Positions 7,349 to 50,504 of a stretch of DNA of 64,000 nt are shown here, in pieces. The stretch is taken from contig NZ_JAINZO010000002.1 in assembly GCF_020179605.1 (NCBI RefSeq), positions 930,001-994,000 on the forward strand. The letters run 5' to 3'. A program made the position numbers and the translations under genes. Numbering within the stretch: the first letter of the stretch is position 1; each line of letters starts with the position of its first letter. Below the pieces are notes generated by a model that did not search any database, was not told the origin of the DNA, and was given only the letters and a program-made list of their open reading frames with translations. This DNA is from Geomonas agri (GTDB taxonomy: Bacteria; Desulfobacterota; Desulfuromonadia; Geobacterales; Geobacteraceae).

Positions 7349-7363
7349 TTACTTTTGAATCTC

Positions 7364-9150: not shown

Positions 9151-9154
9151 TTGT

Positions 9155-14020: not shown

Positions 14021-14022
14021 GC

Positions 14023-14349
14023 TTACCCCCTGTAAATTTCCCAGCACCTTCCCTCCGACGCGTGAGGACATTCCCGTATTATCGAGCACCTGCATTCGAA
14101 GTATAGCTTGTCACCCCTGGCCACGAGGCCAAAAGGGCGTTCGCGTTCGTCGTGAACCGAGCAGTGCATTCCGCGGTCGATTAACTTGAGCTGCCAATCC
14201 TGGAGGTGCACGTTGCTGAATCTTGCACCCTTTAGGATCGCGAGGGCCTTCAGGTCCTTAACCTTTTTGATGAAATTTGATTCGCCGAATGGGAATTCCC
14301 CGTCTAGGACGTAGACGTTGCTCTTGACCGACACGTTTGATTTTTCCAT
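14023..14349 (-). CDS. Small Cys-rich protein between Hsp70-like and helicase genes
   Basis: A 108-aa protein starting at ATG 14349, which shares one base with the stop of the Hsp70-like gene (TAATG). The C-terminal 30 residues contain four cysteines arranged C-x-C-x5-C-x7-C (FECRCSIIRECPHASEGRCW) and could bind zinc or an Fe-S centre; SWIM-type zinc fingers (CxC...CxH) are a loose resemblance, since CPH follows. A fifth Cys lies upstream in HCSVHD. The helicase gene starts 2 nt after its stop. The tight coupling on both sides suggests a dedicated subunit linking the Hsp70 module to the helicase. No family recognised. Confidence 0.75.
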   Translation of the reverse strand: MEKSNVSVKSNVYVLDGEFPFGESNFIKKVKDLKALAILKGARFSNVHLQDWQLKLIDRGMHCSVHDERERPFGLVARGDKLYFECRCSIIRECPHASEGRCWEIYRG

Positions 14350-20042: not shown

Positions 20043-20076
20043 TAAAAAGTCCTCCAAAATCGTCATACTGCCATGG

Positions 20077-20104
20077 ATTATACTTGGGCTCAGGATTCTA
20101 TTTG
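20077..20104 (-). promoter_or_regulatory. Candidate defence-operon promoter: TATAAT with poor -35
   Basis: On the minus strand a perfect TATAAT lies at 20082-20077, with predicted start near 20070. Seventeen bases upstream there is no good -35 hexamer. A strong -10 with a weak -35 just downstream of a WYL regulator gene suggests regulator-dependent expression. The 28-nt leader implied supports the 20042 start codon. Confidence 0.4.
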
Positions 20105-20214
20105 GGAATACAGTGGGGCTTTCCGCCTGCTCTCAGTCAATAAAGAAATCGCTGTTAGGCCTAATAGCGGTAGCGTGCAAGGAACCTAGCACAACACCTC
20201 CCCCAAGCAGCGTC

Positions 20215-21183: not shown

Positions 21184-21233
21184 GCCGCCTCCCAATTCCA
21201 CTTCATAAATTCATTAAAATTAAAAGCCGCCAA

Positions 21234-22207: not shown

Positions 22208-23038
22208 ATGCCTCGTAGAACAAAAGCTAGTGATGCTTCAAAACTCAAGCAGGGGCGTGGCTTGCGCCATGGTCAAGAGTACACGCCATTCCTGACGGTT
22301 CGTGAGGTGCCTTCAAAAGGGTTACGCCATCGGGAACCTGGTTGGAAGACAGGTCGGATACATCATTGCCTTGCAAATGGAGAAGATGACTGCTTCATGG
22401 TCTTTGAATGGTGTCAACGAATTACCGATATCAGGGAGCAGTTTCCACTGCGGCAGGAGGATACCATTGAGATCGCGGATCGCCTTGGGATAACCCACCC
22501 AAGAGTCCCTGGAACAGAGGACCTTACTGTAATGACAACTGACTTCATCTTAGATGTTTTAGTGGAGGGGAGGATTGTGATGGTTGCGAGAGCAGTGAAG
22601 CTGTCGCAAGATCTTAACGACTTCAGAGTAATTGAAAAGCTAGAAATAGAGCGGACATACTGGCGCGATCGTAAGATCGACTGGGGGATCATCACCCCTG
22701 ATCGAGATTTCCCGAAGAACCTCGCAAGCAATGTCGGGTGGGTTCACAAGGCGTATTATTCTGACGATGCCCCCTGTAGGTTAACGGAAAAGATAATACG
22801 ACAGGCAGAAGAGGCGTTGTATCAGCAGATGGCAGTGCACAACACTACGCCACTGTCACATGTTGCACTTGCCCTTGATGAAAGGTTCGGTCTCCCCGGG
22901 GGGACTTGTCTGTGGATAGTGAGGCATTTGATCGCCACCCAGACATGGAGTGTGGATATGAAGCAGAAGCTGACCCCGGACTTACCGCTAAAAGTTGTGG
23001 AAAGAGCAGTGTTTCGGCTAGAGGCTGTAGATGCCTAA
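22208..23038 (+). CDS. tnsA: TnsA-like transposon endonuclease
   Basis: A 276-aa TnsA homologue. The N-terminal nuclease domain has the expected restriction-fold residues: E67 in VFEWCQ, D112 in TTDFILD and K131 in ARAVKLS, which line up with E63, D114 and K132 of Tn7 TnsA. The TGRIHHCLANGE and ITDIREQFPL stretches are also characteristic. The C-terminal winged-helix half, which contacts TnsC in Tn7, is present. TnsA cuts the 5' ends of the element so that, with TnsB cutting the 3' ends, transposition is cut-and-paste rather than replicative. Start ATG 22208 follows AAGGAAT. Its stop overlaps the tnsB start by 8 nt. Confidence 0.95.
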   Translation: MPRRTKASDASKLKQGRGLRHGQEYTPFLTVREVPSKGLRHREPGWKTGRIHHCLANGEDDCFMVFEWCQRITDIREQFPLRQEDTIEIADRLGITHPRVPGTEDLTVMTTDFILDVLVEGRIVMVARAVKLSQDLNDFRVIEKLEIERTYWRDRKIDWGIITPDRDFPKNLASNVGWVHKAYYSDDAPCRLTEKIIRQAEEALYQQMAVHNTTPLSHVALALDERFGLPGGTCLWIVRHLIATQTWSVDMKQKLTPDLPLKVVERAVFRLEAVDA

Positions 23039-25277
23039 AATAATAAAGGGGTCGATTTTACAGTGGATTACCGAATCAGCTGAAAGCTATGTAGTTAAAC
23101 CAATGGTCGATTCACCTAAAGATCTGTTGGAATGTGTACTATATGCTATGGATGATCAATGTTTTGTAATTCAGCTAAACGGTGACGTCAAGCTTCCATA
23201 CATACGTGAAAAAAAAGAAATAATTTCTGCATTAAATAGTGGCAAGGCAATCCAAAGGACGATACACCCTAATACAAAACAAATTTGTGCTGATGAAAAT
23301 TATATTGATAAACATCGACATAGCCGGGATAGAGCGTTCGAATTAATCCAGGAAATTGTTGAGGATGAACCAAATATATACTTTTCTGAGAAAAGAGGAC
23401 AACTAGTAAAATCAGTAGTTGAAAAACATAAGGTGACAAAATCTGAAATATACAAGTTTCTTTATAGATACTGGGTTGGAGGAAACACAAAAAATGCTTT
23501 GCTGCCGTGCTATGATCGATGTGGTGCGCCAGGCAAAGATAGAGTTATTAGTACAGAGGATGCCAGTGGCGATTTAAAGAATGGAGTTGCTAAGAGGGGG
23601 CGTCCAAGCAAAAAAAAGAAATTAAATCCGGATTTTGAAGGAGTAAATGTTACCGAAGAAGATAAGAAAATATTTAATATTGCTATAAAACTTTACTATA
23701 GCAAGCAAGGCAACAGGCCGCTTACGGCGGTTTATCAAAAAATGAAAGTCCATTTTTACAGTATTGGGAAAAGATTTGAAAGAGGTGTGGTTGTAAATGT
23801 AATGCCGCCCAGCCACACAGTTCCCACCTACGGGCAGTTTCGTTACTGGTTCAATAAACTTCAAGATTATGCTGAAACTCAGCGGAAACGATTGGGTGAA
23901 AAAAAATACAATTTGGTTGCTAGGGCCATTCTTGGAGATTCCACTAAGATGGCCAATGGTCCAGGGTCACTATACCAAATAGATGCAACAATAGCAGATG
24001 TCTATTTAGTGAGTTTACTGGATCCGACAAGGATAATAGGGCGTCCAGTAGTATATTTTGTGAAAGATGTATTCTCCAGGATGGTAGTAGGGCTCTATGT
24101 AGGGCTTGAAAGCCCTTCTTGGACAGCAGCAATGATGGCTATTGCTAATACAGCAGCTGATAAAGTCGCCTTCTGTGCTGAGTATGGGATTGAAATTAGT
24201 GAACATGAATGGCCTTGTCGCTATCTATGCGAGAAGTTTGTGGGAGATGGTGGAGAGCTTCTTTCAATTAATTCGGATGCTTTAGTAGATAGGTTAAACA
24301 TCGGGGTAGCTAATTGCGCTCCATATCGTGGAGACCTTAAAGCTATAGTGGAACGTCAATTTGGTATCACAAATGAAAAAGTGATTGACTGGTTGCCAGG
24401 CGCAGTTCACGACATAGGACCCGGTGAAAGAGATCATCGACTGGATGCAACTTTAAACATTCATCAATTTACAAAGCTCATCATAGTCATGGTGCTAGAA
24501 CATAACCAATGCCAATGGCTGAACGACTATCGTCTCGATCGAGCAATGATTGCCGACAAGGTAGACCCGATACCACTTAAGCTGTGGAATTGGGGGATAC
24601 TAAACAGGTCGGGACATTTACGTGAGAAAACACAGGACGTGATAAAGCTTGCACTAATGCCTCGAGACACTGCTAGTGTGACAGAAAAAGGAATTTATTT
24701 CAGAAAGATGTATTACACATGTGACTTAGCATTGCGGGAACAGTGGTACGTTGAGGCCCGAATGAAGGGGAGATGGAACGTTGAGGTTTCCTATGATATT
24801 CGAAAAGCAGACATAATTTATCTCATCAAGAAGGATAAAACATTTGAAACCTGTTGTTTGGTTGATGCCGATGCTCGTTTTAAAGGTGCTAGTGTTGAGG
24901 AGGTTCAAGATTTCTTCGAGATACAGGATATAAAGTCTAAGGTTCATGAAACCGAGGCTATACAAAGCAGTGCTCGCTTGCACGCTATGCTTGAGGCTGA
25001 ACTCTCAGACGCTAGAGCAAGAAGTAAAGATCGATCGCGCCCTGAGGTGAGCAATTCAAGGCGAGTTAAGGAGATTAAGGAAAATCGATTGGTTGCAAAG
25101 CAGCAGGCTCGAGAAAAAGAGGCTTTTGATCTGAAACCTACTAAACAGAACATGGAGCCCGCAAAGGTTCTCGCGTTTGCAGGTGAAATAAAGGACCAAG
25201 CCAAAGTAAGGACTGCTGCGGAGCAACAAATGGATTTGCTAGCGACAATTAAGGAAAGCGAGAAAGGTGATAGCTGA
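23031..25277 (+). CDS. tnsB: TnsB-like DDE transposase
   Basis: A 748-aa transposase of the Tn7/Mu type. Catalytic residues are D318 (YQIDAT), D406 (VGDGGEL) and E441 (AIVERQFG), the D,D-35-E spacing of the retroviral-integrase fold. N-terminal helical domains for binding the transposon ends precede it, and a beta-barrel plus a basic, Lys/Arg-rich C-terminal tail follow; the tail likely contacts TnsC. The gene is strikingly AT-rich compared with the host genes. It begins inside the end of tnsA and its stop shares one base with the tnsC ATG (TGATG). Confidence 0.95.
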   Translation: MPKIIKGSILQWITESAESYVVKPMVDSPKDLLECVLYAMDDQCFVIQLNGDVKLPYIREKKEIISALNSGKAIQRTIHPNTKQICADENYIDKHRHSRDRAFELIQEIVEDEPNIYFSEKRGQLVKSVVEKHKVTKSEIYKFLYRYWVGGNTKNALLPCYDRCGAPGKDRVISTEDASGDLKNGVAKRGRPSKKKKLNPDFEGVNVTEEDKKIFNIAIKLYYSKQGNRPLTAVYQKMKVHFYSIGKRFERGVVVNVMPPSHTVPTYGQFRYWFNKLQDYAETQRKRLGEKKYNLVARAILGDSTKMANGPGSLYQIDATIADVYLVSLLDPTRIIGRPVVYFVKDVFSRMVVGLYVGLESPSWTAAMMAIANTAADKVAFCAEYGIEISEHEWPCRYLCEKFVGDGGELLSINSDALVDRLNIGVANCAPYRGDLKAIVERQFGITNEKVIDWLPGAVHDIGPGERDHRLDATLNIHQFTKLIIVMVLEHNQCQWLNDYRLDRAMIADKVDPIPLKLWNWGILNRSGHLREKTQDVIKLALMPRDTASVTEKGIYFRKMYYTCDLALREQWYVEARMKGRWNVEVSYDIRKADIIYLIKKDKTFETCCLVDADARFKGASVEEVQDFFEIQDIKSKVHETEAIQSSARLHAMLEAELSDARARSKDRSRPEVSNSRRVKEIKENRLVAKQQAREKEAFDLKPTKQNMEPAKVLAFAGEIKDQAKVRTAAEQQMDLLATIKESEKGDS

Positions 25278-26977
25278 TGTCAAAAGAGAGGATTGACACT
25301 TCATTCTTCAGGGGGGACGTTGTCACTGCAACATACGTTGAACATGCAGATAAAACCTATGCCTGCAACCCCTATATTGAGGCATTGCCACCGCCAATCA
25401 ATGATGAAAAAGTCGCTAGTCTCTTGAGACGGATGCCGTACTATGACGAGAAGGAGAGGCAACACACCGCATTAGATAGAGTTACATTTGCTCAAAGAGT
25501 TACGAACTGCATGGTTCCATTGCCTGATCATATACTGATATTTAAGAAGTTCCAGCGAATGATCACTGATGGATATCTAGCCCGTAATCCCCTTTCGTCC
25601 GAGTGGATAAAGCAGGTACGTAGAGGATTTCCTCACCTTGACTGGGTCGGACTGTATTCCGGTTATAATCCATATATCAGAAAGAACGGTAGTGGAATTA
25701 ACTGTACAGGGCCCAGCGGTGTTGGAAAAACAACCACAGTTGAGAGCGCACTGTCCCTGCTGCCGCAAGTCATAGTACACACAAGTTACCAAGGGCAGGC
25801 TTTTGATCAAAAGCAACTAGTGTGGTTAAAGTTGGAGTGTCCCTCTGACGGTTCTTTGAAAGCGTTATGCCAAAGTTTTTTTGTGGTCTCTGACTCCGTA
25901 TTAGGGAAGCAGAGTGATCCAAAGATTTATTCGGGGATGACTGCGGAATACCTCCTCCCACTGATGGCGATGAGAGCATCAAGTATGGGACTAGGGGTAT
26001 TAGTTGTGGATGAGATCCAGCGGCTAAACCGGGCTGCAAGCGGTGGTGCAGACCGCATGTTGAAGTTTTTTGTTCAACTCACAAACAATTTGGGCGTTCC
26101 AGTTGTCCTTATCGGGACGTTTGAAGCTGCAAATCTTTTTACAAAGGATTTTGCGAGTGCCCGAAGAAGTTCCGGCAAGCAAGGTGAGATGGTCATGAGT
26201 AACATGCGTCCTGACCGGATCTGGGATTATTTTCTGGAGAGTATTTGGCAATACCAGTTTACAAATGTAGTGACACCCCTGACCCCTGCGCTGAGGAAGG
26301 CTTTTTACGCAGAGTCTCAAGGGATAGCAGATATCTGCATTAAGCTTTACATGCTCGCACAGATACAGGTCATAGGATCTCAGGATGAACGGATAACCCC
26401 TGACCTAGTCTCGGATGTAGCACGAGCAAATCTGCACTCTGCACGTCCAATGTTAGATGCCTTACGACGAGGGGATACAGAAGCACTTAGTCATATTCCT
26501 GATTTATACTTGCCCCAGAGCTTATTGGATCGATGTCGTGCGAGGGCTGAGCACCGGATCATACTAAGTGGGACCCTAGATACACTAAAAAACCAATCAC
26601 ATCATGATCTGAACACTGATGAAGACTACGTCGATCCTCCTGAGGATAAGATTGCTAAGCTGCTTGTACAGGCTGGTTATAGCCAACTCCTGGCTGTCAA
26701 ATGTGCTGGTGAGGCTGTCGCGAGATTCGTGGAGGAAGGCAACATCAAGCTAGCCACAGCCGAAGCCTTTCGAATTGCTGCAGAGCACGAGGCCGATCAA
26801 AAAATAGAAGTAACAGGGGCGAAACCCTCCGGTGTGCGGCCTCAGAAAAAAGTGGTTTCCATTAGCGGGGATCTCCGGGAGATCTTTAACAAGAGGCCAA
26901 AAGCTATGGAGCCTTACGAAGCATTTAAGCAGGCAGGCGTTATCAAGCCCGCAGACGAATTCCTTGAAGTGTGTTGA
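25277..26977 (+). CDS. tnsC: TnsC-like AAA+ regulator of transposition
   Basis: A 566-aa AAA+ ATPase. Walker A GPSGVGKTTT is at about residues 145-154 and Walker B LGVLVVDEIQRL near 240-250; PVVLIGTFEA follows as sensor I. TnsC polymerises on DNA, takes target information from TnsD/TniQ and activates TnsA-TnsB. A C-terminal extension of about 150 residues beyond the AAA+ core probably contacts TnsA/TnsB. Coupled to tnsB by a one-base overlap and followed 7 nt later by tnsD. Confidence 0.95.
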   Translation: MSKERIDTSFFRGDVVTATYVEHADKTYACNPYIEALPPPINDEKVASLLRRMPYYDEKERQHTALDRVTFAQRVTNCMVPLPDHILIFKKFQRMITDGYLARNPLSSEWIKQVRRGFPHLDWVGLYSGYNPYIRKNGSGINCTGPSGVGKTTTVESALSLLPQVIVHTSYQGQAFDQKQLVWLKLECPSDGSLKALCQSFFVVSDSVLGKQSDPKIYSGMTAEYLLPLMAMRASSMGLGVLVVDEIQRLNRAASGGADRMLKFFVQLTNNLGVPVVLIGTFEAANLFTKDFASARRSSGKQGEMVMSNMRPDRIWDYFLESIWQYQFTNVVTPLTPALRKAFYAESQGIADICIKLYMLAQIQVIGSQDERITPDLVSDVARANLHSARPMLDALRRGDTEALSHIPDLYLPQSLLDRCRARAEHRIILSGTLDTLKNQSHHDLNTDEDYVDPPEDKIAKLLVQAGYSQLLAVKCAGEAVARFVEEGNIKLATAEAFRIAAEHEADQKIEVTGAKPSGVRPQKKVVSISGDLREIFNKRPKAMEPYEAFKQAGVIKPADEFLEVC

Positions 26978-26984
26978 GGGCGGT

Positions 26985-28850
26985 ATGCTTTCATTTTTTC
27001 CTGCGCCATACCCAGATGAACTACTTTACAGCGTATGCGCCAGGTACCATCTGCGTAGTTGCAATGCAAGTCCGAAAGCCTCCATGCTGGAACTATTCGG
27101 GTCGTCCACTGCCTGTGCGACCGTCGACCTGCCTAACCGGCTTCAATATCTCTGTAACCAGCTCTCAAAAGGAACGTTGATCACTCCGAACAGGTTGCTT
27201 AGCGAAAACACAATGCTGCCTCTGTACCGGCCTTTTTTGCCGAAAGCACGCCTCGCGAGAATAACGAAATGGATGCTGGAGTCAACGCGCGGAGGTAGCA
27301 TCCATGTGGCCATTGGGGCGACGGCGAGCACCGTCCACCACCCGCGATACCTACAGTTCTGCATTGAGTGTCTCAAAGCGGATGAAGAAAGGTTCGGTGA
27401 GGCATTTTGGCATCGTTGTCACCATGTCCCCGGCGTCCATGTATGTCACAAGCACGGAGTGTCTCTATTTGCCACCGAATTCCCGGTGAAGGTGCAATTA
27501 AACAAGCACTTGTTCTATCCGCTGCCGAACTTGGCAGGTGGAGCGGTGGAGCAGGAGGCGGTTGAAGCATCAAGTACGGCAGAATTGTTGATCGCTTCAA
27601 ACGTTGCTTGGCTATTGCATGCGAACGATGACGAATGGCCAGGTCTTAAGTGGATAAGGAGGCGCTATCTGGATTTCTTGCGGATTCGTGATTTGGCAAC
27701 ACTTTCTGGGCGGGTTTATCAAGAGCAGCTTATCCGGGAATTTAATGCGTACTACGGAGAGCAGTTTCTCCAAAGAGTTGGTTGCCAGGTACAGCCGGAG
27801 GGTGGGGATAGCTGGCTGAGCAGGCTTGTTCGCAAACCTCGCACAGCTTCTCACCCCCTAAAGCACATCCTCCTCATGGGGTTTCTAGGAGTAGATGTGA
27901 ATGAATTTTTCAGCGGAGGTATGGTCGGGCACTCTCCTTTTGGTCGTGGCCCCTGGCCTTGTTTGAATCCAGTCGCGCCTCACTACAAGAAATCTGTCGT
28001 TACTCATTGCCTAATCACAAGGAATTCTGAGAGCGGGAAGCCTGTTGGGAACTTCATCTGCCCATGTGGTTTTTGTTACGCACGTACGGGACCTGATGGC
28101 GGCAGAGAGGACAGGTACAGGATTGGAAGAATTATCCAGTATGGGCCGGTCTGGGAGAGTGAGTTGCTCAGATGGTGGCAAAAAGGAATCGGGTTAAGGG
28201 CTATAGCAAGACACCTCGGCGTCACATCTAAGACGGTGACGAGGCACATCTCTTATCTTCAAGTAAGGCCGCTACAAAGTCCTGCAACCACTTCAAATGA
28301 AGTCGATATTCGACGGGCAAGGTGGATTAAGCTGCGGTCGTCCTTCCCCAGCGCGGGTCGGAAGCTCTTGAGAAGTCTAGCTCAAGCTGATTATGTCTGG
28401 TTGTACAGACACGACCGTGACTGGCTGAAAGCGAATATGCCCCCACCACTGCCCTATTCAAAGAACCGCGACCTACGTGTCAACTGGCCTAGGCGCGACT
28501 GGGAAGTGGCCGCTGCTATCCAAAAAGCTCAGAGGATAATTCGCGCCAGGTTGGGAAAACCAACGAGAGTGACTGTGAGCGCTTTAGGCAAGTACATTGG
28601 GGGGCTGTTCATCCTGCAGCACAAGTTACACAAGTTGCCCCTTACCGGACGTCAACTCCAAAAGGTGTGTGAATCGAAAGACGGGTTTGCCTTGAGACGG
28701 GTCCGGCGAGCAGTGGAAGAACTCAAGAGGCAAGGGCAACCTCTGACAGCGTGGCGCATCTGTCGTATAGCCGGTATGGGGACTGAGGTCACCGATGTCG
28801 TGCAACGGGAGATAGACCGCTTAATATTGAAGAGCACCTACGAATCATAA
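26985..28850 (+). CDS. tnsD: TnsD/TniQ-type target selector
   Basis: A 621-aa TnsD. I start it at ATG 26985 (GAGGGCGGT upstream, 7 nt after tnsC); the frame is open further upstream inside tnsC. The N-terminal TniQ domain begins FFPAPYPDELLYSVCARYH and contains a CCCH zinc knuckle, C126, C129, C154 and H157. The C-terminal half carries HTH-like segments, for example GIGLRAIARHLGVTSKTVTRHI near residue 400-420 (given here only as its position), suggesting sequence-specific attachment-site recognition as in Tn7 TnsD. Its length is slightly above Tn7 TnsD (508 aa). Confidence 0.92.
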   Translation: MLSFFPAPYPDELLYSVCARYHLRSCNASPKASMLELFGSSTACATVDLPNRLQYLCNQLSKGTLITPNRLLSENTMLPLYRPFLPKARLARITKWMLESTRGGSIHVAIGATASTVHHPRYLQFCIECLKADEERFGEAFWHRCHHVPGVHVCHKHGVSLFATEFPVKVQLNKHLFYPLPNLAGGAVEQEAVEASSTAELLIASNVAWLLHANDDEWPGLKWIRRRYLDFLRIRDLATLSGRVYQEQLIREFNAYYGEQFLQRVGCQVQPEGGDSWLSRLVRKPRTASHPLKHILLMGFLGVDVNEFFSGGMVGHSPFGRGPWPCLNPVAPHYKKSVVTHCLITRNSESGKPVGNFICPCGFCYARTGPDGGREDRYRIGRIIQYGPVWESELLRWWQKGIGLRAIARHLGVTSKTVTRHISYLQVRPLQSPATTSNEVDIRRARWIKLRSSFPSAGRKLLRSLAQADYVWLYRHDRDWLKANMPPPLPYSKNRDLRVNWPRRDWEVAAAIQKAQRIIRARLGKPTRVTVSALGKYIGGLFILQHKLHKLPLTGRQLQKVCESKDGFALRRVRRAVEELKRQGQPLTAWRICRIAGMGTEVTDVVQREIDRLILKSTYES

Positions 28851-28858
28851 GAGGACAA

Positions 28859-29899
28859 ATGCTGCCCTTTTTTCCCAGACCTTATCCACACGAATTCTTA
28901 TACAGCATTTTTGCTCGGTATCATTATCGCGCTGGCAATCTAGCATATCGGCACACTTGCCAGGAACTGCTAGGTTCCGCAACTACTGCTGCGCTAACAC
29001 TGTATCCAAGCAACTTAGAACACCTGTGCAGCCAGTTGCACGAGGATTCCCTTATCAACGCTGATATGCTCGTCGAAAATCACACTTTTTTCCCACTCTA
29101 CAGACCGTTCCTGTCGAGTGGCCGAAGAGGCGAAGCGCTGAGGTACGTGAAGGGGTCAAATAGAGGTGAGCAACGACGAACCCAGAGAGGTTTTATCAGG
29201 TTCAACAGCTTTATCGGCGGAAATTTTAAATACTGCAAAAGATGCGTTGCCGCAGATCGGGAGAAGTTTGGGGAAGCGTACTGGCATCGCGACCATCAAC
29301 TCCCAGGGGTTCAATTTTGTTACAGGCATAGGACGCTCTTGATCGACAGTGGGTTGCCGTTGACATCCACCGGGAATAAGAAGGACCTGTACCTCTTGAA
29401 CGAAGATCCTCCCCGAGTAGAGCCTTCGTACCAGCCTACGCCGAAAGAGGCAGAGCATTTGAAATTTATTGCATCATCAGTTCACTGGCTTTTGAACAAC
29501 CCACTACCCGACAACTCTGATGAGTTGATAAATCTAAACTATGAAGCCAAGAAGGTTGAAATGGGCTTCGCTCATATCCTTGTACCTGAACAAGTCAAAG
29601 ATAACGGGGCACTGAAGTCGCTCCTCTGCCATAAAAAAGTGGCAAAAGCCTTCAATAGGTGTTTCAGCGATAGCCTTCTCGCGCAACTGCCGGAGAGTCT
29701 ACACATAGCACCTCGGTCAAATTGGATTGTTGGGTTCCTAAAGGACAGCAGAAAAGAGATAAATCCGCTGCGGCATATTCTAATAACGCGACTTTTACAA
29801 GAAGACATCGGCAACATGTTCCGACCGATCGTAGCCGGGGCTGTGGAAGGGCGAAGCCTTGGTGGAAACACATGTGCTGCCTCCCAAGGGCTCGGGTAA
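28859..29899 (+). CDS. Second TnsD/TniQ-like protein, short or truncated
   Basis: A 346-aa paralogue of the preceding protein. It starts MLPFFPRPYPHEFLYSIFAR and keeps the zinc ligands at exactly the same positions (C126, C129, C154, H157). Similarity continues to NPLRHILITRLLQEDI near residue 320, after which the sequence diverges and stops, so the C-terminal DNA-binding half seen in the first copy is absent. In another frame just downstream a GRAKPWW stretch loosely resembles the GRGPWPC of the first copy, so a frameshift is possible. Alternatively it is a genuine short TniQ. Two tandem target selectors suggest two targeting routes. It follows tnsD by 8 nt. Confidence 0.85.
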   Translation: MLPFFPRPYPHEFLYSIFARYHYRAGNLAYRHTCQELLGSATTAALTLYPSNLEHLCSQLHEDSLINADMLVENHTFFPLYRPFLSSGRRGEALRYVKGSNRGEQRRTQRGFIRFNSFIGGNFKYCKRCVAADREKFGEAYWHRDHQLPGVQFCYRHRTLLIDSGLPLTSTGNKKDLYLLNEDPPRVEPSYQPTPKEAEHLKFIASSVHWLLNNPLPDNSDELINLNYEAKKVEMGFAHILVPEQVKDNGALKSLLCHKKVAKAFNRCFSDSLLAQLPESLHIAPRSNWIVGFLKDSRKEINPLRHILITRLLQEDIGNMFRPIVAGAVEGRSLGGNTCAASQGLG

Positions 29900-37419: not shown

Positions 37420-37503
37420 GTTGAGGTTTCTTTGAGCCGCCCACAGCTGAATTCTGAAGGAATTCTGTAGAGATTGGTTAATTCTCGAAGCAAAGGTATC
37501 CAC

Positions 37504-38205
37504 ATGGCTTTAAAGATAATACAAGGAAATATTTTCACGTCTCACTGCCAAACCATTGTGAATACCGTCAACTGCTCCGGCATCATGGGGGCGGGGATTG
37601 CACTTGAGTGCCGTTTCCGCTGGCCGCAGATGTTTCAGGCCTATGTGGGACTCTGCCAGAAGAAGCAAATGAAGATTGGACTTCTATGGTTGTACAGAGC
37701 TTCCGATAGATGGATCCTTAACTTTCCCACCAAAAATCACTGGAAAGACCCCTCGAAAGAAGAGTATTTGCACCTTGGGCTTCAGAAGTTCATGGGCACC
37801 TACGAACAGAAGGGGATTGAATCCGTCGCGTTTCCGTTGCTCGGAGCCCAAAACGGGGGGCTAGACCAGGACATTTCGCGGCAGATAATGGAATCGTACC
37901 TGCGGGAATGCATCATTCCGGTAGAAATATACCGCTATGATCCGAACGCACCTGACGATCTTTTCTTGGGCGTCAAAGATGCTCTGGCAGGCAGGACTGC
38001 GGCGGAGATTAGGGAGGCGGTTGGGCTTCATACCGACCAGGCCGAGAAGGTCCTTGATGCTTTGCAGAACCCTGCCATCTGCCAACTCAACCGAGTTGCC
38101 ACCGTCAGCGGCATCGGTTTGAAAACCGTCGAGAAACTCTTCTCCTTTGCACGGAATCCAGCACTCAAGGTTCCCGATGCAGTTCAGCAACCTCTGACAT
38201 TTTGA
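37504..38205 (+). CDS. Macro-domain protein (DarG-like antidote candidate)
   Basis: A 233-aa protein from ATG 37504. Residues 1-150 are a macro domain: IIQGNIFTSHCQTIVNTVNC and GIMGAGIALECRFRWPQMF form the ADP-ribose-binding loop as in DarG, where it removes ADP-ribose from thymidine in DNA. The C-terminal 80 residues are helical, with a helix-hairpin-helix-like VATVSGIGLKTVEKL. Full DarG is longer, so only the N-terminal catalytic part is represented. It sits 19 nt before the gene for an Hsp90-DarT fusion, the arrangement expected for an antitoxin. Detoxification of the fused DarT is inference, but the pairing is well supported. Confidence 0.85.
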   Translation: MALKIIQGNIFTSHCQTIVNTVNCSGIMGAGIALECRFRWPQMFQAYVGLCQKKQMKIGLLWLYRASDRWILNFPTKNHWKDPSKEEYLHLGLQKFMGTYEQKGIESVAFPLLGAQNGGLDQDISRQIMESYLRECIIPVEIYRYDPNAPDDLFLGVKDALAGRTAAEIREAVGLHTDQAEKVLDALQNPAICQLNRVATVSGIGLKTVEKLFSFARNPALKVPDAVQQPLTF

Positions 38206-38224
38206 AATGCAATGGAGTGTATTG

Positions 38225-43212: not shown

Positions 43213-43250
43213 CAGAATTACTGGAAAGAACTTCCATGACGGGACACTAG
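43213..43250 (-). mobile_element. Solo end of an IS630/MITE-type element
   Basis: Read on the minus strand from 43250: CTAGTGTCCCGTC, 12 nt, then TCCAGTAATT. The 144-bp MITE end at 7507 reads CTAGTGTCCTGTC, 12 nt, TCCAGTAATT, the same layout. No matching opposite end lies in the flanking 250 bp, so the rest has decayed or been deleted. The last residues and stop of the receiver-like gene are read from it. Confidence 0.6.
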
Positions 43251-44240
43251 ATGACGTTTTGCGTAGTTGTCGAACCATTTGAGGACGTCAAGGCAACCAT
43301 GAATTGGGGTGGTCAGGTTGTAATTAGGCATCTCCCCGTGAATTTTCTTATTTAGGTACAGATGGATGTACCGCATCAAGGGCAGAATGTGCTTTTCGTC
43401 GTTCCTTAATTTCGGGGACAAAAAATCTTCTATCAACTTCCACCGATCCTCGGACTTCTCTTTGATATGGGGTGCGACCTTATTTACTATTTTTTCAATA
43501 AAAAGCCGGGGATTTGGCTCCTGGACAAGTCCTCCGGCAATGTGTTCGGGGGAGGACTGCAGGTATCGGTAACAAAGGAGGAGGTGCTCGCGCAACACGC
43601 GAAGGGTAGGGTTTTCGAAATGACGGCTGACAATGCCGAAGGTTTCGTAGTTATCGAGGAGAATCTGGCGCAGGGCAGGATGGAGCATTCTATGTCGTAT
43701 TACATCATAGCAATCCTCGTCCTTGCACACGATGCACTGCTTCCCCTTGTCGCCCTTCAGTATCATCGGGACGTGGATTCCATCTCCCAGGTCCGGGTTG
43801 GCGGTGAGGAATATGAGGCTTTTTACGAAGTCATCGACGCTGCCGTTAAAGTCCAAGTGCCGGGCGAAAAGCAGATTAACTATGGCATCTCCCTCTCGTT
43901 GCGGCTGGAACAGCTTCTCTCCCTCCTTCCCCATCTTCTGTTGGGCAAGTAGTTTCCCTACATAATTGTAGCGGTATCCAGTTTTGGAAAGGTTTCTGTC
44001 AATGATGAACAGGTCGTAATCGCATCCATTCTTCCCCAGCTCCTTAATGGCCCCCACAAAGGTGTTTTCTACACGGATAAGCGGGTTCGATTTGAAGGCA
44101 TCAACGATCCTTTCGCCGATGTTGGGCGAGTTGCGGTCAATTGATTCGAGCTCTTCCACGATTTCAGGGCTGATGAAACCGAAAAGCCTGATCATCGTGT
44201 CGACGCTGAGCTCGTCCTCCAGATAAAAGATCTTTTTCAC
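43218..44240 (-). CDS. Receiver-like protein, partner of TPR histidine kinase
   Basis: A 340-aa protein whose N-terminus looks like a response-regulator receiver: KKIFYLEDELS with the acidic pocket and YDLFIIDRNLSKTGY with the likely phospho-Asp, although the spacing between them (about 70 residues, with a helical insertion) is larger than normal. The remainder is a helical output region without a recognisable DNA-binding domain, containing CIVCKDEDC. GTG start 44240 overlaps the kinase stop (GTGA), so the pair is translationally coupled. The final eight or so residues are encoded by a transposon end, so the native C-terminus may have been altered. Last gene of the RiPP operon. Confidence 0.65.
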   Translation of the reverse strand: MKKIFYLEDELSVDTMIRLFGFISPEIVEELESIDRNSPNIGERIVDAFKSNPLIRVENTFVGAIKELGKNGCDYDLFIIDRNLSKTGYRYNYVGKLLAQQKMGKEGEKLFQPQREGDAIVNLLFARHLDFNGSVDDFVKSLIFLTANPDLGDGIHVPMILKGDKGKQCIVCKDEDCYDVIRHRMLHPALRQILLDNYETFGIVSRHFENPTLRVLREHLLLCYRYLQSSPEHIAGGLVQEPNPRLFIEKIVNKVAPHIKEKSEDRWKLIEDFLSPKLRNDEKHILPLMRYIHLYLNKKIHGEMPNYNLTTPIHGCLDVLKWFDNYAKRHLVSRHGSSFQ

Positions 44241-45826
44241 TTTTCACCCTCCCAGAAGTTGGAAAATTTCAGATTGACCACATAGCGCCTGTTGTTGTGT
44301 GTCCGCTCCGGCGGCGGAGCGCCCATGACGCGAGCTATATTGTCGATGATGACGTTGCCCAAGCCGGTAGAGGTCATCGGGACGTTGGGGGAGAAGCTGT
44401 TATCCACCTCGAAAACCAGGTTGTTTCCCTGCTTAGCGAGTCGGACACGTATCTTCCTGGATTTCCGGGTAACCGAGCTCGCGTATTTCACTGCATTGAG
44501 AAGGATTTCTCCCAAAATGGTGTGAAATTTGATGTACGCCCCCTTGTTGTCCCGCTCCGTTGACAGGAAGAGCCCCTTGGCATCGTTGATCCGCAGATCG
44601 AGGCCGAAGAGGTACTTCTCGGCAAACGCCGCCAGTGCGGCCTCCTGGGTTTCTCCCTCCTTGGTGGCCAGATCCAGGAACTCACCTCTGCATTGAAAGA
44701 GGGTATCTGAGTCTTTGAAGTACCCGGAACGGATGGCGTCATAGAAAATGTCGCCATTCAGGACGTTCCCGATCGCGGCGGTCATGCCACATAAAATGAT
44801 TGAATAGAGGGACCATTCGGTCGGCCTGGTGCTGGCGTCGCTGTAGAAATCCTGCTCAGTACCATGGAAGGAGAGGGTGGCAGCGCTGGTCATCTCGCGT
44901 ATGATGTTGATGCCGATTTTCGCGGTGTCTATGGCGCTGCCGACCCGGCTCAGGTTTCCCGTCAGGATGTAGCTCTTTGCTGTTTCCAGGGGGCTTATCG
45001 CGTTGCGAACAATGTTTTTTATCGAGTGGCAGAGGTTCTGGATGACGATGTCCCTGGCTTCGATTACCGCCTTCTCCAGCTCGATCTGCCGCTGTTGCTC
45101 CTCGATGCGTCTGGTCCATCCGTCCTGCATTTCCTTTTTGGCGCGGTCGCTGCCGGTCAGGTGAGGCAAATGGTAGAGGATCTCCTCGCTCAGGGCCAGG
45201 GTGACCTCAAAGATCCGCTCTAGATACACCGCCGCCTCGTATCCTTCGTAAGTGAACTCTCCCGATTTGTTCTGCCGATAGACAGTCAGCGCCAACTCGA
45301 AGAAGCTCACCAGGTCGTCGCTGTAGGTGTCAAAACCCCTGATCCTCCCCAGCGTCCGGTCCAACTCCGGAACTGCCCCCGAGTCCAACAATTCGAGATA
45401 ACGATCGAAGAAGAAGCTGATGTCAGGATCATCCGCGGCTGGAATGTTGTCCGGAAGCAGCAAAAGAAGTAGTACGGCAGAGAATGCTGCCGCCTGCAGC
45501 ATTTCCTGCGGGTCGCCTTCCGAGGCCAGCTGCCGCAGCAGCGGGGTAAGATCCTGCTCGACGGCGTCCTCGAAGCTTTTCAGAGGGCGCTCCCGGTTAG
45601 GGTCAAGGTTGAGCGCTTTCTGGTAGTGCTCTTCTGCGGCTGCGATATCTCCCAGCAGCAGGTGGAATACCGACAGGGAGGCATAAACGTCTTCCTTTGC
45701 CCCCTCCGTGCACTGTGTCAGATCCGCCTCGAACAGACGGATCTGCTCCTCGGCCCACGTGGCCAGGTGCGAAAACACGGGTAGGTCGGAGGGTTCAAGT
45801 TCAATATAGTTCATGTCGTTGGTCAT
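44237..45826 (-). CDS. TPR-containing histidine kinase-like GHKL ATPase
   Basis: A 529-aa protein from ATG 45826 (AAGGAT upstream; an ATG at 45871 lacks one). N-terminal residues 20-100 include a TPR-like repeat (AEEHYQKALNLDPNRERPL). The kinase core follows a coiled coil (EEQQRQIELEKAVIEARD): a phospho-acceptor helix NLCHSIKNIVRNAISPLE, N box ILGEILLNAVKYA, and a G box STGLGNVIIDNIARVMGAPP. The H-S-I-K-N box is unlike the common HExRTP type. No membrane segment, so it is cytosolic. It pairs with the following receiver-like gene and lies downstream of the radical SAM gene; it may tune production or effect of the modified peptide (inference). Confidence 0.78.
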   Translation of the reverse strand: MTNDMNYIELEPSDLPVFSHLATWAEEQIRLFEADLTQCTEGAKEDVYASLSVFHLLLGDIAAAEEHYQKALNLDPNRERPLKSFEDAVEQDLTPLLRQLASEGDPQEMLQAAAFSAVLLLLLLPDNIPAADDPDISFFFDRYLELLDSGAVPELDRTLGRIRGFDTYSDDLVSFFELALTVYRQNKSGEFTYEGYEAAVYLERIFEVTLALSEEILYHLPHLTGSDRAKKEMQDGWTRRIEEQQRQIELEKAVIEARDIVIQNLCHSIKNIVRNAISPLETAKSYILTGNLSRVGSAIDTAKIGINIIREMTSAATLSFHGTEQDFYSDASTRPTEWSLYSIILCGMTAAIGNVLNGDIFYDAIRSGYFKDSDTLFQCRGEFLDLATKEGETQEAALAAFAEKYLFGLDLRINDAKGLFLSTERDNKGAYIKFHTILGEILLNAVKYASSVTRKSRKIRVRLAKQGNNLVFEVDNSFSPNVPMTSTGLGNVIIDNIARVMGAPPPERTHNNRRYVVNLKFSNFWEGEK

Positions 45827-45872
45827 TTTTTTATCCTTAAATGGGAGGTCGGGCCTCGTTTTAGCCTGCATC

Positions 45873-47216
45873 TCAGTGATTGTGCGCCTTGAACGAGTCG
45901 TAAAAGAGCTGGACCATTTCCCGGGGGTGGTACAGGGAAAGGATGCATCCTCCCGGCTCGGCCCCGTCCAGGCTTTTCAGCGGGCAGCCGATCCCCAGGC
46001 AAACTGGAAAGATCGGGCACTGGGCGCACCGCTTAGTGATTGCGGCACCGCACTCGCCGGTCCATGCCGAAAGGTTACCATTGAGATGCAATAGTCCGGC
46101 TTTGTCGATTTGCCCCACATCGTTTAGGGGGGCCTGGCAAACAGTGCATTTTTTCACGCGTAGACCCGGCTCGATAACAAGACTGTTGATCCGGCCCGCA
46201 TAGCATCCCTGCCCGCCGACTTCCCAGGTTCTTAAATCGGCTAGGGGGAAACCGTACTTGAGGGCTAGCCTGCTGAAAAGCGCATTTTTCTGCACCGCAT
46301 TAAATTTGCTGCACAAGGTGCTGGTGTCGATACCGCCGCCCCAGTCTCCAGCGGCTCTCGTCCTCAGGAAGAAGCGGGAATCGCCGCCCGTTGCCTCGGC
46401 CAGCGCTGCGAAGGCTCGGGATACCTTGTCCTGCTCTCCCGAAACGCGGTCGAAGTTCATCCTAAGATCGATTCGAAAGTCCTCAGGAAGGGTGGTGATC
46501 CCGCGGATGTTAGCAAGAATCTGCTGATACCCATTGCCGCCGCAGCGCATCGGCCGTTGGCGGTTATGGTCCTCCTCCCCGCCGTCGACAGTTATCTGAA
46601 AGTGGGTCACCCCTTCCCGGACCAGCCGGCCACACAACTCCGGGGTGAGCAGTGTAGCATTTGTAGTCATGCTTCCCGTCACTTTTGTGCCGCTTGCTCT
46701 GGCCCACATCCTGATTGCGGTATTGAACCGGTGTATGAACGGCTGGTTCAGTAAGGGCTCACCGCCGAAGTACTCAAGGTGGAGCGTCTGCAACTTACGG
46801 ATGTGCAGCTGCCTCAGAAGCGGCTCGCCGTCTGATTCCCAGGACATACCAGGACCGTCGTGCTCCTGACCACAATAGATGCAGTCGCAGTTGCAGGCGG
46901 TACCTGCTGGCAGTAATACCAAGTGCAGCGTCGAACTGTCTTTGGCCATCCGCCGGTAACGCTCCATGGCGGCACTCCGGCTCCACCCCTGGGGAACGAT
47001 GATCTCCTGGCTCACCAGCGAGGCGAAATCGTCCTCAAACGGTGCCGCAAATGCGTCAAAATCCGTGGTGCTGTTCCCCAGTAACCGGAACAGCGGATGC
47101 TCGGGATCGGACACCTCGATTAACGCCGGGCCGTTGCAGGCCCCCCAAAAGGCGAGAACGAAGACTTCACCCCTGCGTGCCACCGTGGTGAAAGGATTCA
47201 AGCTAAAACGACTCAT
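45873..47216 (-). CDS. Radical SAM/SPASM peptide maturase
   Basis: A 447-aa radical SAM enzyme. ATG 47216 is preferred over 47243 because GGAGG lies 6 nt upstream. The first 80 residues look like a RiPP recognition/PqqD-like region. The radical SAM cluster ligands are C108, C112 and C115 (ACNCDCIYCGQEHD), followed by LEYFGGEPLLN. The C-terminal SPASM domain provides many cysteines (CYAGRINS, KKCTVCQAP, CGAAITKRCAQCPIFPVCLGIGCP) for two auxiliary 4Fe-4S clusters. Such enzymes install thioether, C-C or epimerised linkages on ribosomal peptides. The substrate is almost certainly the 28-residue peptide encoded at 47914-48000; a link from its two Cys or Trp is likely but unproven. Confidence 0.9.
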   Translation of the reverse strand: MSRFSLNPFTTVARRGEVFVLAFWGACNGPALIEVSDPEHPLFRLLGNSTTDFDAFAAPFEDDFASLVSQEIIVPQGWSRSAAMERYRRMAKDSSTLHLVLLPAGTACNCDCIYCGQEHDGPGMSWESDGEPLLRQLHIRKLQTLHLEYFGGEPLLNQPFIHRFNTAIRMWARASGTKVTGSMTTNATLLTPELCGRLVREGVTHFQITVDGGEEDHNRQRPMRCGGNGYQQILANIRGITTLPEDFRIDLRMNFDRVSGEQDKVSRAFAALAEATGGDSRFFLRTRAAGDWGGGIDTSTLCSKFNAVQKNALFSRLALKYGFPLADLRTWEVGGQGCYAGRINSLVIEPGLRVKKCTVCQAPLNDVGQIDKAGLLHLNGNLSAWTGECGAAITKRCAQCPIFPVCLGIGCPLKSLDGAEPGGCILSLYHPREMVQLFYDSFKAHNH

Positions 47217-47847
47217 CACATCCTCCTTGGCCGGTCTGGTCACGGTAGGTTGTCACCTTGCTGTGCGCGGCAAGCGTATTGATGGCGGCGAGCCGCACCG
47301 TTGCCGCCGCCGGATCACCATACCGGGACTGGTGGCCGTTGCGCCGCAGTAGGGTCTGGCCGGACTCGGGCAGCCGGACCTGGATGAAGCCGGCTGCGAT
47401 GTCGACAGAAAGACGATCAAAATTTGTAGGCGCGGTGAATGACACGTCGGCCAGGGCAGAGTTGATAGCCCCGGTTCGGAACCGGAAGGCTCCAGCCGCT
47501 TTCACCGAGCCGCGAGCAAGGTTGAGAGAAAATGAATCTGCCTGACCACCACTGAGCACGATCCGGGCGTGCGACGCGCTGACGCGGAGTTCCGCGAGAG
47601 GCGCAGCCGTGGCAACTTCAAGAACGCATTCGCCCGCGCTCCCGAGCACCCGCCGGCGTGCGGCATCAATATCGATCCGGGTCGTTCCTCCCTCGTCGCT
47701 CTGCACCAGAGTAGCGTGATCGGGCAGGGTTGCGCGGATCCCGGTTCTTTCCCCTGCTGTCTGGCGCACCACGGAAAGAAGTAGCAGCAGTCCATCGCAG
47801 GATATCGTCAGTGCGGCACTTCCGGAGGCGGTCGCGTAGGTTTTCAT
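47203..47847 (-). CDS. Beta-rich protein of the RiPP operon, 214 aa
   Basis: A 214-aa protein built of short repeating beta strands (LRVSASHARIVLSGG, FSLNLARGSVKAAGAF, FRTGAINSALADVSF, LSVDIAAGFIQVRL), the look of an adhesin-like or DUF4097-type beta solenoid. No signal peptide or membrane segment. AGAGGA precedes ATG 47847, and its end overlaps the radical SAM gene by 14 nt. Lying between precursor and maturase, it may bind or shield the peptide or form part of a peptide-bearing complex. Family not recognised. Confidence 0.65.
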   Translation of the reverse strand: MKTYATASGSAALTISCDGLLLLLSVVRQTAGERTGIRATLPDHATLVQSDEGGTTRIDIDAARRRVLGSAGECVLEVATAAPLAELRVSASHARIVLSGGQADSFSLNLARGSVKAAGAFRFRTGAINSALADVSFTAPTNFDRLSVDIAAGFIQVRLPESGQTLLRRNGHQSRYGDPAAATVRLAAINTLAAHSKVTTYRDQTGQGGCDESF

Positions 47848-47881
47848 AAGGTCCTCTCGTTAGTAACGGTAGCAGACGTGC

Positions 47882-47905
47882 GCCTGCCTCCTCAAAGAGG
47901 CAGGC
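47882..47905 (-). terminator. Stem-loop after the precursor gene
   Basis: GCCTGCCTC, six-base loop, GAGGCAGGC: 9-bp perfect GC-rich stem starting 9 nt after the peptide stop. No U-run follows, so it is more likely an attenuator or an RNA-stabilising hairpin that lets the precursor be made in excess over the downstream genes. Confidence 0.55.
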
Positions 47906-47913
47906 AGCGGTGA

Positions 47914-48000
47914 TTACCAGCAAACAACGCCGCAGCCGCTTCCTGCGGTGATCGTGCTGGAGAGGTTAGGTGTGGGAGCAGAGGGGGAGAGTTGTTTCAT
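47914..48000 (-). CDS. 28-residue RiPP precursor peptide
   Basis: A short gene with an excellent ribosome binding site (GGAGG, 5 nt before ATG 48000) and TAA at 47914-47916. The peptide begins MKQLSPSAPTPN, runs through a Ser/Thr-rich stretch and ends AGSGCGVVCW. The leader is very short and acid-free; the probable core is the last nine residues, with two Cys four apart and a terminal Trp. Translation is likely because a sigma-54 promoter is positioned 25 nt upstream of the ribosome binding region, and because a beta-rich protein and a radical SAM/SPASM maturase follow in the same operon. I know no described RiPP class with this core. Product could be an antimicrobial, a toxin or a signal. 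Confidence 0.75.
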   Translation of the reverse strand: MKQLSPSAPTPNLSSTITAGSGCGVVCW

Positions 48001-48035
48001 GGTAGCCTCCAAAAGGTATAGAATGTACTTCTACT

Positions 48036-48051
48036 AGCAGTATCCGTGCCA
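48036..48051 (-). promoter_or_regulatory. Sigma-54 promoter of the RiPP operon
   Basis: Minus strand: TGGCACGGATACTGCT. The -24 element TGGCACG is perfect and the -12 element CTGCT has one mismatch to TTGCT; GG and GC are 12 bases apart as required. Predicted start near 48025 leaves a 25-nt leader containing the ribosome binding site of the precursor. The divergent gene encodes a sigma-54 activator. Confidence 0.85.
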
Positions 48052-48128
48052 TCAAATGGTGCGACGATATAAGGCACTGAATTTAATAACGATATTTTAT
48101 TTGCGAGGGTTTTGCTGGAAGGCAAATT

Positions 48129-48144
48129 CGGAAAAATATTTCCG
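48129..48144. promoter_or_regulatory. Candidate upstream activator site
   Basis: CGGAAA-AATA-TTTCCG, 6-bp arms, about 110 bp upstream of the predicted sigma-54 start: typical distance for an enhancer-binding protein site. Single site, so tentative. Confidence 0.35.
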
Positions 48145-48235
48145 TTTACCGGACAGATACTTCCTGTTAAGATGTTTTGGCGCCGGTTATAAAAGGGTGC
48201 GCCCGGTATGGGTGACGATGGGACAGGAGGAGTGC

Positions 48236-49855
48236 ATGAAGAACGAGAAATCACTGGTCCTCGTTTCATGGGTGGATCGCAACAACGATCCGTACGAGCG
48301 CGACATGCGCACAGGGACCTTCAGGGAGATAGCGGGAGGGTTGCGGGCCGGACCCACGCTGTCCCTGCTTTTTGATCCGGCTTCTCCCTACGTGGGGAAA
48401 TTTAAGGATGCGGTGCTGTTCTTCCGCCCCTCGGATGACGGGAGGGCGACCTGCCAAGAGATCGCGAAACGCGACGGCAGCATCAAGATCACCGCTGAAG
48501 AATGGGGGGGGGGGGATCCCACCGACCATCAGGCTATCTTCACCTTTCTTAAGCCAAAGATCCAGCAGCTCCGGCGCCGCTTCGAGGGGCGAGAGCTGAT
48601 TGTACACGTAAGCCCAGGCACCCCTTCAATGCAGACGGTATGGGTATTGATGGCGGAAACGGGCTTCATTCAGAGCCCGTGCATTGTGGTTAAAAGCTAC
48701 CGGCAAGGTGAACGCCAGGACGGGGCTATCGTCGCTCCCATTTCCATAGGTATCGAAAGTTTTTACAAGGCATATTCCGCTAACCTCCCCAAGGTTCACT
48801 CCGTAGAGGGCTCCATTTTCTGGGACCGGGCCCGTTTTCGCTCCTCCCTGCTGATCCATCTCTATGATGAAGCGGCTCGCTTTGCACGCCTCAACGTTCC
48901 CGTTCTCATAGTGGGCGAGCGGGGAACCGGTAAAACCACCTTGGCGAGCTGGATCAGGGAACACAGCGCCTTCCGGCATGGGGTGCAGAAGAAGATGATC
49001 TCGGTCCCCTGCGGGCATTTTTCACCGCAGACCATGCGTTCGGAGCTGTTCGGGCACCAAAAGGGAGCTTTTACCGATGCATCCGAAGCCAATGAAGGAC
49101 TTCTTTCTGCCGCCCATAACGACACGCTCTTTCTGGATGAGGTGGGAGATATTTCCCCTGAGGTGCAGCGGCTGCTTCTTAAGGCCCTAGAGGAAAAGGA
49201 GTACCTGCCGCTGGGCGGCAAGAACCTGGTCAAGAGCAACTTCCGCTTGGTGACGGCGACCAACCTGCCGTGGCACAAAATAACAGAGCGACTCCATCCT
49301 GATTTTATGGACAGAATCAGCTCCTTTGTCCTCAGATATCCGCCACTGCGCGAGATCCCCGAGGACCTGGACTGGATCTGGCGTCAGGTCTACCACACCG
49401 CAGCGGTTAGGGCCGATGCCGTAGCAAGCGCGCGAATCAGTGATTCTGTACACACCCGTCTGGTTCGCCGGCTCCGGGACGAGTACCTTCCGGGTAATAT
49501 CCGAAGCCTCTACTTGGTCGCCTACCACATTTTGGCTGCAATCTGCGATCCGGAGGGGAAAACACCCTTGGAACAGGCTGTGGAGGATGCGCTAGGGAGG
49601 CTGCGGGTAGGAGAAACGACGGGGGACGCGAGCGTGGGGGCACAAGTGGCGAGACATTGTGCCGAGCAGATGCCACTTGACGCAGTTCTGGATCGGGTCG
49701 GTGTGCTTGACTGTGCTGCCGTTGAGGGGTGCATCAAAAGCTACCTCGCCCAAGAGCTACGAAGGATCGCCAGGGTCAAGGGAGTGCCTGTTCAAAGCAT
49801 TTGTACTGTTACCGAGCGCACTCTACGTTCTTGGCTTAGTGAAGGACACGGCTAA
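48236..49855 (+). CDS. CARF-domain (RtcR-like) sigma-54 enhancer-binding protein
   Basis: A 539-aa activator from ATG 48236 (AGGAGGAG upstream; the frame is open to 48056). Residues 1-180 resemble the CARF domain of RtcR/Csm6: start SLVLVSWV and LIVHVSPGTPSMQTVWVLMA, the loop that contacts cyclic nucleotide or RNA ligands. The AAA+ domain has Walker A VGERGTGKTT near 227-235, Walker B LFLDEVGDIS near 298-307, and a sigma-54 loop GAFTDA (277-282) in place of GAFTGA. The C-terminus carries a probable DNA-binding helix pair (SICTVTERTLRSWL). A G12 tract within codons near residue 90 makes the gene a candidate for phase variation. It is divergent from the RiPP operon and almost surely drives its sigma-54 promoter. 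Confidence 0.85.
   Translation: MKNEKSLVLVSWVDRNNDPYERDMRTGTFREIAGGLRAGPTLSLLFDPASPYVGKFKDAVLFFRPSDDGRATCQEIAKRDGSIKITAEEWGGGDPTDHQAIFTFLKPKIQQLRRRFEGRELIVHVSPGTPSMQTVWVLMAETGFIQSPCIVVKSYRQGERQDGAIVAPISIGIESFYKAYSANLPKVHSVEGSIFWDRARFRSSLLIHLYDEAARFARLNVPVLIVGERGTGKTTLASWIREHSAFRHGVQKKMISVPCGHFSPQTMRSELFGHQKGAFTDASEANEGLLSAAHNDTLFLDEVGDISPEVQRLLLKALEEKEYLPLGGKNLVKSNFRLVTATNLPWHKITERLHPDFMDRISSFVLRYPPLREIPEDLDWIWRQVYHTAAVRADAVASARISDSVHTRLVRRLRDEYLPGNIRSLYLVAYHILAAICDPEGKTPLEQAVEDALGRLRVGETTGDASVGAQVARHCAEQMPLDAVLDRVGVLDCAAVEGCIKSYLAQELRRIARVKGVPVQSICTVTERTLRSWLSEGHG
48504..48515 (+). repeat. G12 homopolymer inside the CARF activator gene
   Basis: Twelve consecutive G encode Trp-Gly-Gly-Gly-Asp in the CARF part. 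Gain or loss of one base would frameshift and truncate the activator before its AAA+ domain. Such long G runs are rare in coding DNA and are classic slipped-strand switch sites. Confidence 0.9.
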
Positions 49856-50355: not shown

Positions 50356-50486
50356 TATACAACTTTATTTCCGACTAGCTTTTCAGTCGTCTAGGGTGGA
50401 GTATATAATTTTATTTTCGGGGAGAAATTTGGTGTGCGGGGTAACCGCTTGAAATTTTGAAGATTACCAGGTTACAACTTTATTTC
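50356..50486 (+). repeat. Three degenerate direct repeats of TACAACTTTATTTC type
   Basis: GTATACAACTTTATTTCC at 50356, GTATATAATTTTATTTTC at 50401 and GTTACAACTTTATTTC at 50471, all in one orientation, in otherwise mixed sequence. Repeated sites clustered next to a boundary are how transposase-binding sites at ends of Tn7/Tn5053-like elements look. No matching inverted set was found elsewhere in the window. Confidence 0.6.
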
Positions 50487-50504
50487 ATGGGGACACCACA
50501 AAAG

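Follow-up and report, generated by a model that had tools for sequence, protein, structure and literature searches.

CARF domains mostly act as gates for nucleases, or for the transcription of genes that serve RNA repair and restriction. The 64,000-nucleotide stretch of the Geomonas agri genome analyzed here (the window) carries a gene for a CARF-domain activator that lies divergently from an operon combining a putative RiPP precursor, a radical-SAM enzyme and a kinase-receiver pair, which raised the question of what such an activator switches on and in response to which signal. The reading that we regard as reasonably probable is that the locus is a signal-inducible cassette on a Tn7-like transposon, in which the CARF activator turns on a sigma-54-dependent RiPP and kinase-receiver operon, likely as a stress or phage response. 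The first-pass annotation had placed the system at 48036-49855; the activator and the promoter do lie within that interval, but the precursor and the modification genes lie outside it, at 43218-48000 on the minus strand.

The sigma-54 promoter and the divergent activator

The sequence TGGCACGGATACTGCT (48051..48036, minus strand) is the sole zero-mismatch match to TGGCACG-N4-YTGCW within the 64-kb window. When sigma-54 sites were scored with an approximate -24/-12 matrix (maximum, 21.2 bits), this promoter (ATGGCACGGATACTGCT, 48036..48052, minus strand) reached 16.7 of 21.2 bits, the top score within 124 kb of the genome, and its GG and GC are correctly spaced with respect to the -24/-12 consensus. 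Being the only exact match in the window and the best site in 124 kb, it bears out the near-perfect TGGCACG-N4-CTGCT promoter that had been proposed. Counting from the -12 GC, the transcription start is predicted near 48025, which leaves 25 nt to the ATG at 48000; a strong ribosome-binding site, GGAGG (48006..48010, minus strand), stands five nt before that ATG. The earlier statement that the site lies 25 nt before the end of the precursor leader can be kept if it is taken as the distance from +1 to the start codon (48025 to 48000). An rpoN gene was found in the genome. As a candidate binding site for the activator, a weak near-palindrome, CGGAAAAATATTTCCG (48129..48144), lies about 110 bp upstream of +1; its 7 of 8 pairs were equalled in 143 of 2000 shuffles, which is within chance, and it was not retained as an enhancer.

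The divergent gene (48236..49855, plus strand) encodes a CARF-AAA+ sigma-54 activator with a putative C-terminal HTH, of the RtcR_PspF1 subfamily (PADLOC CARF_AAA_HTH model, 2.5e-136, residues 6-535) that also matches the Pfam family Sigma54_activat (PF00158, 4.7e-40). It contains a Walker A motif GERGTGKT at 227, a Walker B motif LFLDEVGD at 298 and, at 277, the loop GAFTDA, one residue off GAFTGA and found also in three other activators (L061, L079 and L080). The C terminus gave no Pfam HTH match, and the alignment with the RtcR_PspF1 profile extends to position 466 of 468. A model of the N-terminal domain computed from five sequences (pLDDT 75) had as its top structural match Csm6 in complex with an analogue of cyclic hexa-adenylate (6tug; Z 16.3, 151 residues, rmsd 3.5), followed by other CARF proteins, so that the domain is, according to the model, a CARF fold; SPGTPSM occupies the place of TSGTPQM in Csm6. 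With 192.5 bits against the RtcR equivalog NF038308, for which the cut-off is 650, the protein is not RtcR. The locus resembles the RtcR-rtcBA RNA repair operon in having a CARF activator divergent from a sigma-54 promoter, but differs from it in that neither rtcA nor rtcB adjoins the activator, which is below the RtcR cut-off; the RtcB of this genome is encoded on another contig (C5). The RtcR-like CARF-AAA+ activator of the first-pass annotation is therefore correct as to its CARF-AAA+ architecture and its divergent position, although it matches RtcR_PspF1 rather than RtcR itself. No CARF homologues were found in viral contigs and no activator homologues in plasmids.

In the mechanism that we propose, the CARF domain would keep this RtcR_PspF1-type activator inactive as long as no nucleic-acid-derived signal is bound, and the ligand-bound protein would then act through an AAA+ ring to open the sigma-54 holoenzyme at 48036-48052. 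The pairing of activator and promoter was approached by comparison of 27 loci with such activators, in which sites of at least 14 bits within 1.2 kb of the activator gene were counted. Such sites were present in 14 of the 27 loci, at a density 12-fold above that in the remainder of these loci (Poisson p 3e-11). At six loci (L065, L067, L068, L069, L072 and L074) an RtcR_PspF activator lies directly upstream of a sigma-54 site and type I restriction genes, several of them with the site in the short gap between the activator and the first restriction gene. The closest RtcR_PspF1 relatives of the window activator adjoin TerY-type (TerY-P) genes (L061, L081, L082, L116 and L117), and such activators usually stand next to a TerY-P triad or a type I restriction system. 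Among the RtcR_PspF1 loci, L061, L116, L079 and L080 showed no sigma-54 site at 14 bits; below that threshold, L081 scored 13.7 bits and L082 has TGGCACG-N4-TCGCG. These comparative data support a wiring of activator to adjacent promoter, and we infer that the window activator would drive the window promoter in the same way.

Were the sigma-54-like site fortuitous, the operon would be under a sigma-70 promoter, and near-matches to the consensus with two mismatches do occur in the window at chance level. Against this stand the exact match on the right strand, the 25-nt 5' UTR with its Shine-Dalgarno sequence, the enrichment of sites beside such activators and the fact that no sigma-70-like site was found before the precursor ORF, and we consider a chance site very improbable indeed.

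Sigma-54 control of defense operons by CARF proteins is already in print as a prediction (PMC4012209, PMC11090510). The RtcR-like defense regulators described there, including those of the CoCoNuT superoperons (PMC11090510), share with the window activator a CARF domain, an NtrC-type AAA+ domain and a predicted HTH, lie beside restriction, TerY-P and other defense genes, and are predicted to activate sigma-54 transcription upon binding an infection-related nucleic-acid ligand; the restriction and TerY-P neighborhoods found here agree with those predictions. The window differs from them in its divergent target, an operon in which radical-SAM RiPP genes are combined with a kinase-receiver pair. 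Radical SAM is unmentioned in PMC11090510, where the mentions of kinases or receivers concern the REC domain of Type I-B CoCoNuTs.

The putative peptide genes of the operon

The operon would yield a 28-aa precursor, a 214-aa helper, a radical-SAM enzyme, and the pair formed by a TPR histidine kinase and a receiver. The putative precursor, MKQLSPSAPTPNLSSTITAGSGCGVVCW (28 codons, 47914..48000, minus strand), is the sole Shine-Dalgarno-led small ORF between the promoter and the next gene; it lies directly behind the promoter and next to the maturase, and has a Cys-bearing C terminus. Neither a homologue of the precursor (plasmids were searched) nor one of the whole operon was found. Between the precursor and the downstream genes, an inverted repeat forms a stem-loop that is not followed by a T run (47882..47905, minus strand; RNA fold of 47850-47920, z -2.8), a possible attenuation or processing site, beyond which the genes for the 214-aa protein, maturase, kinase and receiver overlap or abut.

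The SPASM-type radical-SAM peptide maturase (45873..47243, minus strand; Pfam Radical_SAM PF04055, 6.1e-14) carries the cluster motif CNCDCIYC, of the CxxxCxxC type, at 117. Its best matches among the NCBIfam RiPP maturases were TIGR04463 (1.9e-32, 112.6 bits versus a cut-off of 525) and the geopeptide family TIGR04280 (2.8e-26, 92.4 bits versus a cut-off of 400). Because the enzyme scored below every curated RiPP cut-off, it lies outside the described subfamilies. No close homologue was found in 141 genomes of the order, in plasmids or in viral contigs, the best match being 33% identical. Just upstream of the gene for that nearest relative within the order (L032) lies a 55-aa ORF that resembles a precursor and is Cys-ended, while relatives further removed (L035 and L056) are accompanied by 32-aa Cys-bearing ORFs. 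A small Cys-ended ORF and a SPASM radical SAM behind a sigma-54 promoter thus uphold the earlier call of a RiPP-type operon, in which the enzyme would cross-link the precursor, probably at its C-terminal Cys residues. The SPASM radical-SAM clusters of the TIGR04463 and geopeptide TIGR04280 types likewise have a short Cys-ended precursor before the enzyme, to which the matches here are weak; the window differs from them in scoring below all curated cut-offs, in its added kinase-receiver pair and CARF activator, and in having no exporter.

The peptide had been called a weapon. According to that idea, the product would be a secreted antibacterial RiPP whose cluster had borrowed a stress-responsive activator, as a SPASM radical SAM with a small Cys-ended precursor, related to RiPP maturases, could suggest. 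However, none of the five operon genes encodes an exporter, a leader peptidase or an immunity protein; therefore, a secreted weapon is unsupported, and we judge it distinctly unlikely. A further parallel to the locus is offered by the peptide-processing modules of NTPase conflict systems (PMC7159879), which also have a radical SAM among their genes and in which the modified peptide was proposed as effector or signal; the window differs from them in that neither a vWA-MoxR NTPase core nor a metallopeptidase is found among its genes. If a CARF-sigma-54 switch indeed controls a modified-peptide operon, the fields of RiPPs and of phage defense would be joined, and a silent peptide cluster would have gained a concrete inducing signal.

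The remaining gene of this part of the operon encodes a strand-rich 214-aa protein of no recognised family (47203..47847, minus strand), whose likeness to DUF4097 is weak (E 0.29, below the cut-off). A toastrack assignment was discarded, the single-sequence model being unreliable (pLDDT 37). A Bradyrhizobium plasmid (L110:4690-6843) carries in a row an ORF of about 60 aa ending in GGCQCN, a radical SAM and a DUF4097 protein, a RiPP-like arrangement; the 214-aa protein gave no significant BLAST match to this DUF4097 protein.

The kinase-receiver pair and its recurrence

The last two genes encode a soluble TPR histidine-kinase-like protein (44237..45871, minus strand) with an H-box HSIKN, an N-box and a G2 box, and a receiver-type response regulator with an uncharacterised C-terminal domain (43218..44240, minus strand). 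The kinase has H282 in its H-box and E455/N459 and G503/G505 in its ATP-binding boxes, and the receiver has all five hallmark residues (E8, D9, D81, T146 and K172), the signatures of a two-component system. A sequence-profile search of the PDB yielded no structural relatives of the receiver.

A single clear relative of the kinase was found in 395 genomes of the phylum (L123), where its gene stands between a CARF-AAA+ gene, which directly precedes it, and a receiver gene. When 291 genomes of the class of L123 were searched with a profile, 11 contained clear relatives, and in 6 of the 11 (L123, L148, L149, L150, L152 and L187) a CARF-AAA+ activator is encoded on the same strand, no more than about 5 kb away. 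The kinase-receiver pair occurs at these six loci without the peptide machinery of the window. The four activators scanned (L123, L148, L149 and L150) had RtcR_PspF2 as their best PADLOC match, and of the L152 activator a fragment is present, at the edge of the stretch. Sigma-54 sites of 19.0 (L148), 15.8 (L149), 18.2 (L150) and 14.6 bits (L152) lie ahead of the pair or of the gene in front of it. A further locus, L147, has a 19.4-bit site, and no activator is present on its contig, which starts about 3 kb upstream. At L147 and L152 the first gene behind the site encodes a different, B12-type radical SAM, and two kinase-receiver pairs follow; as a homologue of the window maturase this enzyme was rejected, since the L152 protein, the one compared, shows no BLAST similarity to it. 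At L150 (4700-5620), two small unknown genes lie behind the 18.2-bit site and before the TPR kinase, with the CARF activator after the receiver gene.

Because the pair recurs at CARF activators while the gene between promoter and kinase varies, the activator, the kinase and the receiver are the constant part of these loci. On this sequence comparison, CARF-sigma-54 activators have the kinase-receiver pair as a conserved companion, and the RiPP set is a variable payload in the window. An extension of this view makes a CARF-triggered kinase-receiver module the core, with output through the C-terminal domain of the receiver and the RiPP as an intracellular regulator or accessory rather than the effector. 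The pairs without RiPP genes beside CARF activators and the varying first genes (the B12-type radical SAM of L147 and L152, the two small genes of L150) would fit it; in the window, by contrast, it is the precursor and maturase that follow the promoter immediately, and the L152 enzyme is unrelated to the maturase. We consider this extension rather unlikely, and return to the inducible cassette, in which peptide and pair are switched on together. The recurrence of the CARF activator, TPR kinase and receiver module in Desulfobacteria relatives makes it a candidate system by itself, with several promoters among its loci that could serve in a search for the CARF ligand.

Neither a RiPP operon nor a kinase-receiver pair was described as a target of CARF-sigma-54 control in the literature searched, which excludes the 2020 CARF classification (10.1093/nar/gkaa635) that may list some such neighborhoods. 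Of the wiring that the first-pass annotation had not seen described, CARF-sigma-54 control of defense genes is thus known, and what is new in the searched literature is the RiPP payload and the CARF-kinase-receiver module.

Other receiver proteins share the C-terminal domain of the window receiver. At L173 another CARF activator is followed by a different kinase-like gene and then by a receiver with this domain, and seven loci (L174, L176, L177, L179, L181, L182 and L183) encode receivers of about 300 aa with the same domain, each behind a conserved partner of about 380-430 aa.

The inducing signal and the carrying element

By analogy with RtcR, the signal read by the activator would most likely be RNA ends or a related nucleotide. 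The CARF domain of RtcR binds tRNA halves with a 2',3'-cyclic phosphate (PMC7790460), and oligoadenylates do not activate RtcR in vitro (PMC9650030). RtcR-type domains mostly lack a basic residue after strand 4 (PMC4012209), and no Cas10 was found in the genome, the sole Cas10-palm match being a REC-PAS-GGDEF protein, a GGDEF enzyme, so that Cas10 was rejected as a ligand source; the two together point to an RNA-derived ligand as the better guess. The two RtcR findings and the Cas10 result, with the presence of RtcB in the genome, could also be accommodated by an RNA-damage response with no link to phages, in which broken RNA would be sensed by the CARF domain, as it is in RtcR, and the operon would help the cell recover. 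This would leave aside the restriction and TerY-P loci at which relatives of the activator sit, and the defense genes that share its mobile element, and we find it an unlikely account.

That element is Tn7-like, measures about 56 kb and extends from -5527 to 50495 of the window (genome C2:924473-980495), with the cassette as its last cargo. Its tnsA, tnsB, tnsC and tnsD genes and a second TniQ-type gene lie at 22208..29899 on the plus strand, and its right end, TGTCCCCATGAAATAAAGTTGTA with three TnsB-site-like repeats, at 50358..50495 on the minus strand. Both ends, at -5527 and 50495, start with TGT and carry TnsB-like repeats. The element is inserted about 25 bp downstream of glmS (attTn7), a place at which related genomes lack it. 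It is flanked by TCCAC and CCACA, which have CCAC in common but out of register, so that there is no clean 5-bp target-site duplication.

The DarTG-like and Druantia-like cargo of the element favors, by association only, a defense role for the cassette, of which a stress or phage response would be the most likely use. A more specific version, which we hold as tentative but possible, is that the radical-SAM-modified peptide is an intracellular defense effector triggered by infection or RNA damage, switched by CARF and sigma-54 and gated by the kinase-receiver pair, and that it belongs, as one payload among others, to a broader CARF-kinase-receiver system that is as yet undescribed. As to the cargo itself, in the DarTG variant (37474-42964) a DarG-like macro protein precedes a 1585-aa protein in which an HSP90/sacsin-type ATPase (PADLOC TmtA) is fused to a DarT domain at the C terminus, and the Druantia-like region (5981-14095) encodes a DruE helicase, a cytosine methylase and a NERD-UvrD protein. 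Beyond the latter, positions 14349-21201 carry an HSP70-like gene and a WYL-type regulator.
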